Both the position numbers and the translations under genes were made by a program. The notes beneath the pieces were generated by a model. The model saw only the letters and a program-made list of their open reading frames with translations. It was not told where the DNA came from and made no database searches. From Hyphomicrobiales bacterium (lineage in GTDB: Bacteria; Pseudomonadota; Alphaproteobacteria; Rhizobiales; Rhizobiaceae): a stretch of DNA of 64,000 nt. The stretch spans positions 124,001-188,000 of the forward strand of contig UBPA01000005.1 in NCBI GenBank assembly GCA_900467185.1. Direction: 5' to 3'. Positions 21,697 through 27,397 of the stretch are shown here, piece by piece (position 1 is the first letter of the stretch; each line of letters starts with the position of its first letter).

Positions 21697-22476
21697 ATGC
21701 AGGATATCCTGCTGCTCATGCAAGACCCAGCCGCCTGGATCGCGCTCATCACGCTTGTCGTCATGGAAGTCGTGCTCGGCATCGACAACCTGATCTTCAT
21801 CTCCATTCTGACGAACAAGCTGCCCCCGGAGCATCGCGACAGGGCCCGCAAGATCGGTATCGGCCTGGCTCTCATCATGCGCCTCGGCCTGCTCTTCGCC
21901 ATCGCATGGATCGTCAAGCTCGATTCCGACCTGTTCACGATCGCCGGCATGGGCTTCTCCGGCAAGGACCTGATCCTGATCGCCGGTGGTATCTTCCTCG
22001 TCTGGAAGGCCACGAAGGAAATCCACCATTCGGTCGACGTCCAGGACCACAAGGAAGACCTCGTCGGCGCCGGCAAGAACGTCGTGAAGATGACCTTCGG
22101 CGCGGCGATCGGCCAGATCCTCGTGCTTGACCTCGTCTTCTCGATCGACAGCATCATCACCGCAGTCGGCATGACGCCGCACGTGCCGATCATGTTCATC
22201 GCCGTCATCACTGCCGTCACCGTCATGCTGGTGGCCGCGACGCCGCTCGCCAACTTCATCGAGAAGAACCCGACCATCGTCATGCTGGCCCTCGCCTTCC
22301 TGCTGATGATCGGCGGCACACTGATCGTCGAAGGCTTCGGCGTCCACGTTCCCAAGGGCTACATCTACGCCGCCATGGCCTTTTCGGCCGGCGTCGAGGC
22401 GCTCAACATGTTCTCGCGCCGCAAGCGCGAGCGGGAGCGCGCTGCAAACGGCGGCGTGACGCCGACGCAGCATTGA
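21697..22476 (+). CDS. TerC family integral membrane protein
   Basis: A 259-residue membrane protein with about seven hydrophobic helices. TerC signatures are [23 protein letters not shown] near the N-terminus and [16 protein letters not shown] in the second half, the two Asp-containing segments thought to bind metal in the membrane. Family members are linked to tellurite resistance and, in some bacteria, to manganese export. A basic, Arg-rich tail ([13 protein letters not shown]) ends the protein. The ATG at 21697 follows a GGAAGGA site. No manganese riboswitch was recognised in the 150-bp leader. A terminator follows. Confidence 0.93.
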
Positions 22477-24367: not shown

Positions 24368-25858
24368 ATGACCGAAAAGCTTGACACCACTCTCTCCTCC
24401 GACGTCACCGAAGTCCGCGCCCAGAAGCTGAAGCTGCTGCGCGCGCAGATCGGCGATGTCTACCCCGCGCATTTTCACCGGACGATCACCAACGCCGAGC
24501 TTGCGGAGAGATATGAGGGGCTGGAGCCGGATGCGGTGACCGAGGATGTGGTCACCGTTGCCGGCCGCGTCTTCTCGTCGCGCAATTCCGGCATGTTCAT
24601 GGACATCCGCGATGCCGGGGCTAAGATCCAGATCTTCTCGCACAAGGACACGACGCCCGAGGAGGCCCGCGCCCTGCTGCCGATGGTCGATATCGGCGAC
24701 ATCATCGGCGTTACCGGCGTCGTGCGCCGCACCAAGCGCGGCGAACTGACGATCAACGCGCAAGAGATCACCATGCTGACCAAGGCGCTGCTGCCCATGC
24801 CGGAGAAGTGGCACGGCCTCTCCGACGTCGAGCTGCGGTATCGCAAGCGGCACCTCGACATCCTCACCAACGAGGATTCGAAGCTGCGCTTCCAGCAGCG
24901 CGCCCGCATCATCTCCGGCATCCGCCGCTTCATGGAAGAGGACGGCTTCATGGAGGTCGAGACGCCCATGCTGCATTCCGTCTATGGCGGCGCGACCGCC
25001 GAGCCCTTCAAGACGCACCACAACACGCTGAAGCTTGACATGTATCTGCGCATCGCGCCGGAACTGTTCCTGAAGCGCACGCTGGTCTCGGGCCTGGCCG
25101 ACAAGGTGTTCGAGGTCAACCGCAACTTCCGCAACGAAGGCGTTTCCACCCGGCACAATCCCGAATTCACGATGATGGAGTGCTACTGGGCCTATGCCGA
25201 CTACGAGGACATCATGGACCTCGTGGAGCGCCTGTTCTCGTCGCTCGCGATGAGCATCCACGGCTCGACGGACGTGACCTTCGGCGACAAGACGATCTCC
25301 TTCGCCGGCCCGTTCAAGCGCGTCCCCATGCCGGATGCGGTCAAGGACGTCACCGGCATCGATTTCCTCGCCATCAAGACCGACGAGGAAGCCCGCGCGG
25401 CGTCCAAGGCGGCCGGCTTCGAGATCGAGAAGGACTGGACCTGGGGCGAATGCCTCGCCTTCATCTTCGAGGAGAAGGTCGAGGGCACGCTGATCCAGCC
25501 GAGCCACGTCACGCATTTCCCCAAGGACATCTCGCCGTTTGCCAAGGAAGTGCCGGGCGAGCCGCGCCTGGTCGAACGCTTCGAAACCTATTGCAATGCC
25601 TGGGAAGTCGGCAATGCGTTCTCCGAGTTGAACGATCCGGAAGAACAGCGCCGCCGCATGGTCGAGCAGCTGGAGCAGGCCCATGCCCGCGGCGAGAAGG
25701 AAAAGCAGCTGGACGACGACTTTCTCGATGCGATCGACCAGGGCATGCCGCCCGCAGGCGGTCTCGGCATCGGCGTCGATCGCCTGGTGATGCTGTTGAC
25801 GAACGCCCCGTCGATCCGCGACGTCATCCTCTTCCCCGCCCGCCGCAAGGCAGACTGA
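24368..25858 (+). CDS. lysS: Lysyl-tRNA synthetase
   Basis: A 496-residue synthetase with an N-terminal OB-fold anticodon-binding domain (TVAGRVFSSRNSGMFMDIRD, about 60-150) and a class II-type catalytic core: motif 2 in FRNEGVSTRHNPEFTMME and motif 3 in GGLGIGVDRLVMLL. Details such as the VYPAHFHRT start and the AFIFEEKVEGTLIQPSH insert match a subgroup of alphaproteobacterial lysine enzymes. The ATG at 24368 is chosen because an upstream in-frame start lies inside the repeat. An inverted repeat (CGGCGCCA/TGGCGCCG, 25878-25901) at the convergent end may act as a weak terminator. Confidence 0.95.
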   Translation: MTEKLDTTLSSDVTEVRAQKLKLLRAQIGDVYPAHFHRTITNAELAERYEGLEPDAVTEDVVTVAGRVFSSRNSGMFMDIRDAGAKIQIFSHKDTTPEEARALLPMVDIGDIIGVTGVVRRTKRGELTINAQEITMLTKALLPMPEKWHGLSDVELRYRKRHLDILTNEDSKLRFQQRARIISGIRRFMEEDGFMEVETPMLHSVYGGATAEPFKTHHNTLKLDMYLRIAPELFLKRTLVSGLADKVFEVNRNFRNEGVSTRHNPEFTMMECYWAYADYEDIMDLVERLFSSLAMSIHGSTDVTFGDKTISFAGPFKRVPMPDAVKDVTGIDFLAIKTDEEARAASKAAGFEIEKDWTWGECLAFIFEEKVEGTLIQPSHVTHFPKDISPFAKEVPGEPRLVERFETYCNAWEVGNAFSELNDPEEQRRRMVEQLEQAHARGEKEKQLDDDFLDAIDQGMPPAGGLGIGVDRLVMLLTNAPSIRDVILFPARRKAD

Positions 25859-25885: not shown

Positions 25886-27172
25886 TCAATGGGTGGCGCC
25901 GGTCTCCTCCGGCGTCACGCCATGCGGTACCGCCGCCTCGTGCTCCACCTCAGTCGCGGCAGGGGCATGGGCCGCGTCGTCCGCAGCCACCGCATGTCCC
26001 TCGGCCTCGGCCGCATCTTTTCCGTGACCGCCTTCGGGCGCCGTCACCGCCTGTTCGGGTGCTCCATGTTCGGGCGCCCCATGTCCAGGCGCGCCATGCT
26101 CCGGCGTCTCGTGCTCCGGCGTCTTCGGTGCAGGGTCGGCATTCGCCACCGGCGCCTCCGCCGTGTCCCCGCCCAGTCCCGGGATCAGGCGCATGACCGT
26201 GGACAACATGCCGTCCCGAGCCGGTTCCGCAGCCTTCGCCGTTTCCCCATCCGCATGCGCGGTCTTGCCGCCCATTCCGGGGATCCAGGCGGTGATCGTG
26301 GAGACCCATCCGCCCTCTGCCGTTGCGGCCTGTTCGTCACCGGCCTTGCCGTCCGCGTGTTCGCTCGCCGGTGTTGCGTGACCGGCTTCGCCATCGGCGG
26401 CCGGCGCATCGTGCCCTTCGGCCGGCGCGCCATGCTCTGCCGCAGCCTCGCCATGGCCTTCCGCAGGCGCACCATGTTCCCTCGCGGCTTCGCCATGCCC
26501 GTCCGACGGCGCATCATGTCCCTCGGAGGCAGCTTCGCCATGGCCGGCGGGTTTGCCGTGTCCGCCGACCCCATCGCCCTCGACCGCAACGGACGCATCG
26601 GCGACCACTGTCTCGCAATCGGCGCGATCGGTCATCGCCGTCAGCGTTGCGCGGATGTCGTCGGGAGAGAGCGCCTTGCGCTCCCCATAGAACAGACCGA
26701 CCGCGTTGGCCTTGCCGTCGGCGTAGCGGGCGATGAAGGGCTGGTCCATGTCCGGCAGCTTCGTCGGGTCGGGCGCAAACAGAACCTCGGCGCCGATCGC
26801 AGCACCGCGCAGGTTCGCCCTGCCCTCCGGCCCCGCCCGGTCGAGCACGACGATCTGGTAGAGATCCGCCTTCTCCGCCTTTGCGAGCACGCCGGCGACG
26901 CGCAGCGCGGTGCGCACCCGCTCGATGCCATCGACATTGTCGGTGCGGACATATTTGCGCAGCCAGCGCTGGCCGCCGCGGTTGAGCTTGATGAAATCCG
27001 ACGTGGTGCAGGCGACGCCCGACGGCTGCGCAGCCGTCATCTCGGCCTCGGCATGTGAAAGAAGCCCGCTCTGCAGAACGTAGACGCCGGCGCCGCCCAG
27101 GAGGACGAGAACGGCCGCCGCACCGAGAAGACGCTTCTTCGACAGCCGGACTTTCAGGGACAAACCTTTCAC
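25886..27172 (-). CDS. Unrecognised membrane-anchored His-rich repeat protein
   Basis: I do not recognise this 428-residue protein. A basic N-terminus and one transmembrane helix (about 15-34) are followed by a globular domain at about 50-195 (ACTTSDFIKLNRGGQRW ... LYQIVVLDRAGPEGRANLRG ... GLFYGERKALSPDD), which contains two cysteines (55 and 186). Residues 200-285 form a Gly/His/Glu/Ala/Pro-rich linker with repeats such as GHGEAA and EHGAPAEGH. Two similar hydrophobic motifs follow (GWVSTITAWIPGMGGKTA and GMLSTVMRLIPGLGGDTA), then a second His-rich tail. The GTG at 27172 has a GGAG site; a TTG at 27205 is the alternative. An envelope protein with a flexible, possibly metal-binding tail is suggested, nothing more. 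Confidence 0.75.
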   Translation of the reverse strand: MKGLSLKVRLSKKRLLGAAAVLVLLGGAGVYVLQSGLLSHAEAEMTAAQPSGVACTTSDFIKLNRGGQRWLRKYVRTDNVDGIERVRTALRVAGVLAKAEKADLYQIVVLDRAGPEGRANLRGAAIGAEVLFAPDPTKLPDMDQPFIARYADGKANAVGLFYGERKALSPDDIRATLTAMTDRADCETVVADASVAVEGDGVGGHGKPAGHGEAASEGHDAPSDGHGEAAREHGAPAEGHGEAAAEHGAPAEGHDAPAADGEAGHATPASEHADGKAGDEQAATAEGGWVSTITAWIPGMGGKTAHADGETAKAAEPARDGMLSTVMRLIPGLGGDTAEAPVANADPAPKTPEHETPEHGAPGHGAPEHGAPEQAVTAPEGGHGKDAAEAEGHAVAADDAAHAPAATEVEHEAAVPHGVTPEETGATH

Positions 27173-27397
27173 CTCGGCCGCTCCATGCCCAATCACGCGC
27201 TCCAAAAGGCCTGCCGGCGGCAGACATCACGGCGGGACCGTAAACGAACAGGGTTGAGGAAGCTTTAATCCGCCCGGTCCGCAGGCATGCCGCACCTGGC
27301 GAAAAACCGCGCGCAGCTTCCGTTTGCCCTTGATTGCCGATAGCCGGATGGCGCATGAGCTTGGGCAACAGGCTTCTCGAGCATCGGACGGAACGGC

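Follow-up and report, generated by a model that had tools for sequence, protein, structure and literature searches.

The gene and the architecture of its product

The window analysed here, a 64,000-nucleotide stretch of DNA from a member of the Rhizobiaceae, carries on its minus strand a gene (25886..27172; GTG start, TGA stop) encoding a protein of 428 amino acids. The family alignment begins at the GTG at 27172, which is thus the best start, and a longer ORF from a TTG at 27205 is less likely. A search of the organism's own genome with the window protein gave one match. The convergent neighbour on the plus strand is lysS (24368..25858, start codon chosen by eye), and beyond lysS and gltX lies a gene for a TerC-family membrane protein (21697..22476, plus strand; match to Pfam PF03741). 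Upstream are genes for an FAD-dependent oxidoreductase and for a nucleoside hydrolase, the latter identified by eye and by likeness to the S. meliloti record.

The protein starts with a short basic N-terminus followed by a membrane anchor at residues ~15-34 (27071..27130, minus strand), recognised from the sequence and from family conservation, since the family keeps a hydrophobic block with a basic RLSRK-type lead at this end. The globular domain, delimited by structural models and the alignment, covers residues 52-188 (26609..27019, minus strand). It comprises about 135 residues bounded by Cys55 (27008..27010) and Cys186 (26615..26617), both invariant in 40 of 40 aligned homologues, as are R85, L104, P115, G159 and G163. 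This alignment holds 40 of 41 loci, one (L073) having been left out for its disturbed N-terminus. The two cysteines are taken to form a disulphide. The window protein contains 22 His, 21 of them beyond residue 186, and the 40-member alignment of the globular domain has no invariant or near-invariant His.

The domain is followed, on the same strand, by a first His-rich linker of GHGEAA/EHGAPAEGH type (26312..26584), which is rich in indels among close relatives. Next come motif copy 1, GWVSTITAWIPGMGGKTA (residues 288-305, 26258..26311), a spacer (26213..26257) and motif copy 2, GMLSTVMRLIPGLGGDTA (residues 321-338, 26159..26212), and then a His-rich C-terminal tail (25889..26158) that is variable save for its last residues. 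These parts were read from the sequence and from comparison with close relatives. The first-pass annotation had the ORF, strand and coordinates all correct, and its layout of an anchor, a domain with two cysteines and a His-rich linker and tail is confirmed from sequence and alignment. The domain is the constant part of the protein and the tail an adjustable accessory. The conserved domain probably lies outside the inner membrane, presumably on its periplasmic side. In two loci of one genus (L064 and L088) an extension of 215-255 residues precedes the membrane anchor, its start codon being not settled. In L016, the same protein carries three LFGFLxRKKK-type repeats in an N-terminal extension, a possible membrane-surface motif on the opposite side of the membrane.

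Family, fold and tail motifs

A 13-member profile detected the family in 117 of the 394 Rhizobiaceae genomes sampled, and in 26 of their 109 genera. The 117 genomes together with one paralogue (L091) provide the 118 loci considered below. Within a sample of 249 genomes from the order, three carried the family, all of them Rhizobiaceae, and no member was found beyond this group. No relatives were found among the viral contigs searched. The close named relatives are Rhizobium sp. PP-CC-3A-592, Ferranicluibacter rubi and Rhizobium spp. Leaf371 and NFR03, with Ensifer more distant. The orthologue of S. meliloti Ak57 is the hypothetical protein LZK74_31710, which adjoins lysS in a stretch without sit. 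The record CP090106.1 is titled pSymB, yet it is 3.7 Mb long and carries lysS and gltX, and it looks like a mislabelled chromosome.

The full window protein matched no Pfam or NCBIfam family at E values up to 10, the known families of periplasmic metal chaperones included, and the domain alone retrieved only DUF3400 from Pfam (E 0.14). Sequence searches of Pfam, NCBIfam and the PDB, whether started from the window protein, from individual members or from profiles built on 13 or 40 of them, gave nothing significant or above a curated cut-off. The first-pass description of an unassigned envelope protein is supported. The recurrent match was to Pfam DUF4875 (PF16175), which 5 of 40 members matched at E up to 1, the best at 2.5e-4 and 21.2 bits against a cut-off of 25. 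None of the 40 members reached this curated cut-off, and the window protein gave no match to DUF4875 at E up to 10. Across 398 genomes of the phylum, DUF4875 had a single match, itself a member of the studied family, with an E value of 9.6e-4 per genome, so that about 0.4 matches would be expected by chance over the 398.

Two AlphaFold models, of the window protein and of an Ensifer protein, reached pTM values of 0.53 and 0.66 on shallow alignments of six sequences (the window and L023-L027). The better model has the predicted topology beta-beta-alpha-beta-(alpha)-beta-beta-beta-alpha. Both models of middling confidence matched PDB 4lg3 best, with Z scores of 11.2 (rmsd 3.8, 119 aligned residues) and 9.5 (rmsd 3.2, 115 aligned residues), the next match scoring 6.9 in both cases. 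Identity to 4lg3 was 12-13%, and the Foldseek E values were 4.6e-3 and 2.1e-3, none below 0.001. We treated as noise the PDB matches that ranked below 4lg3, which reached Z scores of up to 6.9 and comprised a T6SS immunity protein, pyrophosphatases and a MamM domain. The top fold match of the domain, 4lg3, is the Desulfovibrio piger protein DESPIG_00776; its title calls it a DUF487 family protein, from which we take it to be a member of DUF4875. We know of no function for either 4lg3 or DUF4875. The models and the matches below the cut-off suggest a possible distant relationship of the domain to the uncharacterised DUF4875 group, in which we do not file it. The first-pass annotation would have been refuted by a match of the domain to a well-characterised family of known function; the only recurrent match was to this uncharacterised DUF, below threshold, so that the annotation stands on this point.

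A limited literature search found no published account of the family, nor of DUF4875 or DESPIG_00776. On present evidence we regard the family as conserved, functionally uncharacterised and unusual in its tail, and not as a new kind of system, of interest to specialists in rhizobial metal biology and in disordered proteins. ZinT and PCuAC exemplify a class of His-rich periplasmic metal-binding proteins and metallochaperones. The studied protein is likewise rich in His and Glu and probably periplasmic, but unlike that class the window protein has no Pfam or NCBIfam match.

The two 18-residue motif copies lie where the first-pass annotation had placed them and are, as it had counted, identical at 10 of 18 positions. 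This identity was rejected as proof of duplication, since 19 of 200 shuffles of the window tail yielded a pair of 18-mers with at least 10 identities. Because the figure is weak against such shuffles, the question of selection was decided by conservation across species. Both copies are present and gap-free in all six close sequences (window included), with a gap fraction of 0 in the motifs vs 0.241 in the linker, and pN/pS is 0.13 for the motifs, 0.35 for the linker and 0.08 for the globular domain. The motifs are held by selection. The earlier proposal of a duplicated motif under selection is borne out, and the outcome that would have refuted it, loss of the copies even among close relatives, did not occur. 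The duplicated motif of that proposal persists, but its IPGxGG letters do not: copy 2 reads IPGMGA in two of the six close sequences (G005 and G001) and a congener (L007) has IPFMGG, a broader amphipathic motif standing in their place.

IPGxGG is the version of the motif found in the window's own genus. Over the wider family the motif reads G-[FMWL]-[FLM]-x-S-[MVIL]-x-[GAS]-M-[VI]-[GF]-[GL]-G, occurring in 0-3 copies per tail, and further out it can be summarised as G[FWM][FLM]xS[MVI]x[GAS]M[VI][GF][GL]G. A relaxed pattern, which includes the window clade, found at least one copy in 50 of 118 loci (24 with one, 25 with two and 1 with three) and none in 68, many of these having short tails, while the strict pattern misses the window clade, which has Thr at position 5. 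Both patterns were derived from the same data and are circular as tests. The independent measure is a count of hydrophobic clusters made without any pattern, which gave 43 clusters in the tails of 41 loci from 26 genera vs 9.9 expected by shuffling, about half of the expected number coming from two unusual tails (L064 and L088). At 100 degrees the motifs have a mean hydrophobic moment of 0.29, compared with 0.20 for shuffled motifs, which fits a short amphipathic helix with a Gly cap at its end, the likely form of the motif. In this tail, nature offers a good example of selection preserving short motifs while the linker around them drifts. Outside the family ORFs, the strict motif occurred once, in L213, among six-frame ORFs of at least 100 amino acids around the 118 loci (1.52 million residues, short of whole proteomes). 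In that locus (genome G381) a second tail motif lies in another frame; it looks like the tail of the same gene, which seems split or mis-sequenced.

Neighbourhoods and the upstream region

The most constant neighbour of the family gene is lysS, convergent and found in 109 of 118 loci; the nine loci without it include the paralogue and some stretches ended by contig ends. In 40 of 118 loci, from 12 of the 26 genera, sitA adjoins the gene divergently, and the complete sitABCD is present in 39 of these 40. One operon (L071) was tested in full: its ATPase passes the NCBI manganese/iron model (452.9 vs a cut-off of 393), and its SitA and two permeases pass no NCBIfam cut-off, SitA also matching zinc models. 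The manganese specificity of this operon rests on the ATPase model and on the studied rhizobia. Mapped on a tree of 67 members, adjacency to sit is spread widely and requires 8 changes, at least 6 of these on well-supported branches, as would be expected if an old arrangement had been broken (or remade) again and again while lysS stayed. Tails do not differ with this arrangement, the medians being 123 amino acids and 8 His in sit-adjacent loci vs 126 amino acids and 7 His in the other loci.

The window has no sit operon beside the gene, and in its genome the best relative of SitA is 35% identical and that of MntH 64%. Twenty family-bearing genomes of the non-sit group were inspected; 9 of them have a SitA relative of at least 62% identity and 14 an MntH relative of at least 42%, and every one of the 20 has at least one of the two, a result that most genomes of any kind might show. 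Of 41 long loci, 30 (the window among them) carry the TerC-family gene on the far side of lysS and gltX. The nearest NCBIfam model to the window TerC-family protein is YkoY, with a score below the cut-off, and no yybP-ykoY riboswitch was found near its gene at E up to 1. One locus (L081, 2894-2993, plus strand) contains a match to the Rfam pyrrolysine insertion element PYLIS_3 (48.9 bits vs a gathering threshold of 38), which is unexpected in Rhizobiaceae.

Short homologues occur in other surroundings. A plasmid collection, with incomplete gene tables, yielded 10 records with a homologue, five of them chromosome-sized and five smaller plasmids. The three copies from smaller plasmids that were translated (L143, L144 and L145) have no His-rich tail. 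A Nramp-type gene lies directly next to the homologue in Pseudorhizobium flavum and Rhizobium sp. Khangiran2, and one gene further in Rhizobium sp. WL3 and X9; the one tested, that of P. flavum (L143), is MntH by NCBIfam (638 vs a cut-off of 430). The fifth copy, from A. pusense, is cut short and surrounded by IS genes, with no Nramp gene in the listed stretch; the copy of X9 is likewise short and adjoins an IS21. The paralogue, which belongs to a congener of the window organism and has no His in its tail, follows mntR (229.8 vs a cut-off of 153). It is surrounded by copper genes, including those for a multicopper oxidase and PCuAC, and by genes for DsbB and two L,D-transpeptidase (YkuD) proteins. 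Genes for a heavy-metal ATPase and PCuAC are also found in two of the plasmid stretches (L143 and L144).

Upstream of the gene in the window lies a conserved element, TTAAAGCTTCCTCAAC (27253..27268, minus strand), recognised by family comparison, with the family consensus TTAA-N3-TTCC[GT][AC]AA[CG]. Downstream of it, column counts point to a possible -10 element at the TANNNT position (27237..27242, minus strand). The 17-base element scores at least 12/17 in 94 of 118 loci vs 21 of 2000 random window stretches, a comparison favoured by the consensus having been drawn from the same loci. In most loci it starts ~75-105 bases upstream of the start codon, with TANNNT ~10 bases further on. A strict search gave 2 matches in the window's own genome, and a search of 15 genomes gave 11 matches, 9 of them at the studied gene. 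A looser search for a regulon returned 41 matches, as did the reversed-pattern control (41), which is chance level. The element thus looks nearly gene-specific. CtrA sites read TTAA-N7-TTAA, and CtrA was dropped as a candidate binder, the second TTAA half-site being present in 0 of 35 aligned element sites (from 41 loci, the six scoring under 11/17 having been left out).

Mur-like palindromes, searched with a pattern drawn from sit intergenic regions, were present within 400 bases upstream in 38 of 40 sit-adjacent loci and in 0 of 78 others, the window among the latter. These boxes therefore appear to serve sit, and PMC5575495 mentions a mur box ahead of sitABCD in R. leguminosarum. The first-pass annotation had proposed looking for Zur/Fur/Mur sites upstream of the gene; the absence of a Mur-like box in the window speaks against the simplest metal-regulon version of its metal idea. 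Since the upstream element is widespread while Mur-like boxes occur only with sit, the promoter region of the gene is conserved independently of the sit operon.

Possible roles of the protein

Three genomic settings, with sit, with mntH-type genes and with mntR, point to manganese, and the TerC-family gene may add to them. We therefore favour a membrane-anchored periplasmic accessory protein of Mn(II) handling, a tentative preference to which we give somewhat less than even credence. The link to manganese, made by gene neighbourhood only, is no more than suggestive, because the window has no close SitA and no Mur-like box and lysS is the more faithful neighbour. Adjacency to sit may be passive synteny, and the metal islands are crowded with both metal and cell-wall genes. 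The protein would handle Mn(II) at the inner membrane, possibly protecting manganese handling against Zn or Cu. Its working part would be the disulphide-closed domain, probably docking on the membrane or on a periplasmic partner. The tail could serve as an expandable tether, disordered and rich in His and Glu, with a loose hold on divalent metal, and its amphipathic helices, where present, might lie on the membrane surface or on a partner, so that the tether stays close to the site of transport. Membrane contact and metal binding by the tail, both put forward in the first-pass annotation, are plausible suggestions.

The known manganese systems offer a frame for this proposal. PMC5575495 deals with manganese import by SitABCD and MntH in rhizobia, which Rhizobium leguminosarum needs in order to fix nitrogen in some of its hosts. 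The studied protein, whose gene adjoins sit in part of the family, differs in being neither a transporter nor a substrate-binding protein, and the window organism has no close SitA. In Bacillus, according to PMC10550928 and PMC12096827, TerC proteins metalate exported enzymes that require manganese. The TerC-family metalation factors MeeF and MeeY are different proteins from the one studied here; a TerC-family gene shares its neighbourhood, and a shared pathway alone is proposed. A more ambitious version, which we hold to be quite improbable, would see in the family a new class of factor for handling Mn(II) in the periplasm of Rhizobiaceae. Such a factor would link import (Sit/MntH) or TerC-type export to the metalation of exported enzymes, by means of a conserved DUF4875-like domain and a His-rich tether of variable length with amphipathic membrane feet. 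To our knowledge, the fate of Mn(II) in the rhizobial periplasm is little described, and the studied family, conserved and unnamed, with its gene next to those of the importers in many relatives, offers a concrete target for experiments.

Two other explanations take the neighbourhoods or the tail in a different light. The neighbourhoods may be those of a bystander with an unrelated function, for instance as a tether or helper of a secretion or membrane complex. Synteny with lysS, better than that with sit, has no evident functional sense, Mur-like boxes are missing where sit is absent, and the upstream element is nearly gene-specific, all of which fits a bystander; we nevertheless consider it unlikely, though deserving of some weight, as the three settings all bear on manganese. 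The tail could alternatively act as a periplasmic sponge that sequesters Cu or Zn, with no direct part in manganese traffic. His makes up at least 5% of 27 of 41 tails, a figure that also counts in favour of the Mn(II) reading, and up to 14.6%, and homologues are found alongside genes for PCuAC, multicopper oxidase or heavy-metal P-type ATPases. The homologues read from these metal islands (L143, L144, L145 and L091) are, however, precisely those without a His-rich tail, and His is absent from 7 of 41 tails, which weighs against the Mn(II) reading too, so that a sponge appears to us a poor prospect.

A cell-envelope role, in peptidoglycan or lipoprotein metabolism, forms a further alternative to the Mn(II) accessory, in which the domain would work with L,D-transpeptidases, wall hydrolases or lipoprotein processing while the tail reaches toward the wall or the outer membrane. 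Around the homologue in four plasmid stretches (L143, L144, L146 and L147) are found lspA and genes of the L,D-transpeptidase or murein L,D-transpeptidase family, together with DUF882 and/or cell-wall hydrolase genes, and two of the four also have lnt; the pair of YkuD proteins at the paralogue agrees with this. The common chromosomal neighbours found are lysS, gltX, sit and TerC, and we judge an envelope factor rather unlikely. The same islands share a further feature: L,D-transpeptidase-type genes occur in all five (the four plasmid stretches and L091), lspA in the four plasmids, and a manganese-type gene in each (Nramp in four, mntR in L091). Copper inhibits L,D-transpeptidases, and the islands may form a package that allows crosslinking of the wall and supply of manganese to continue in the presence of copper.
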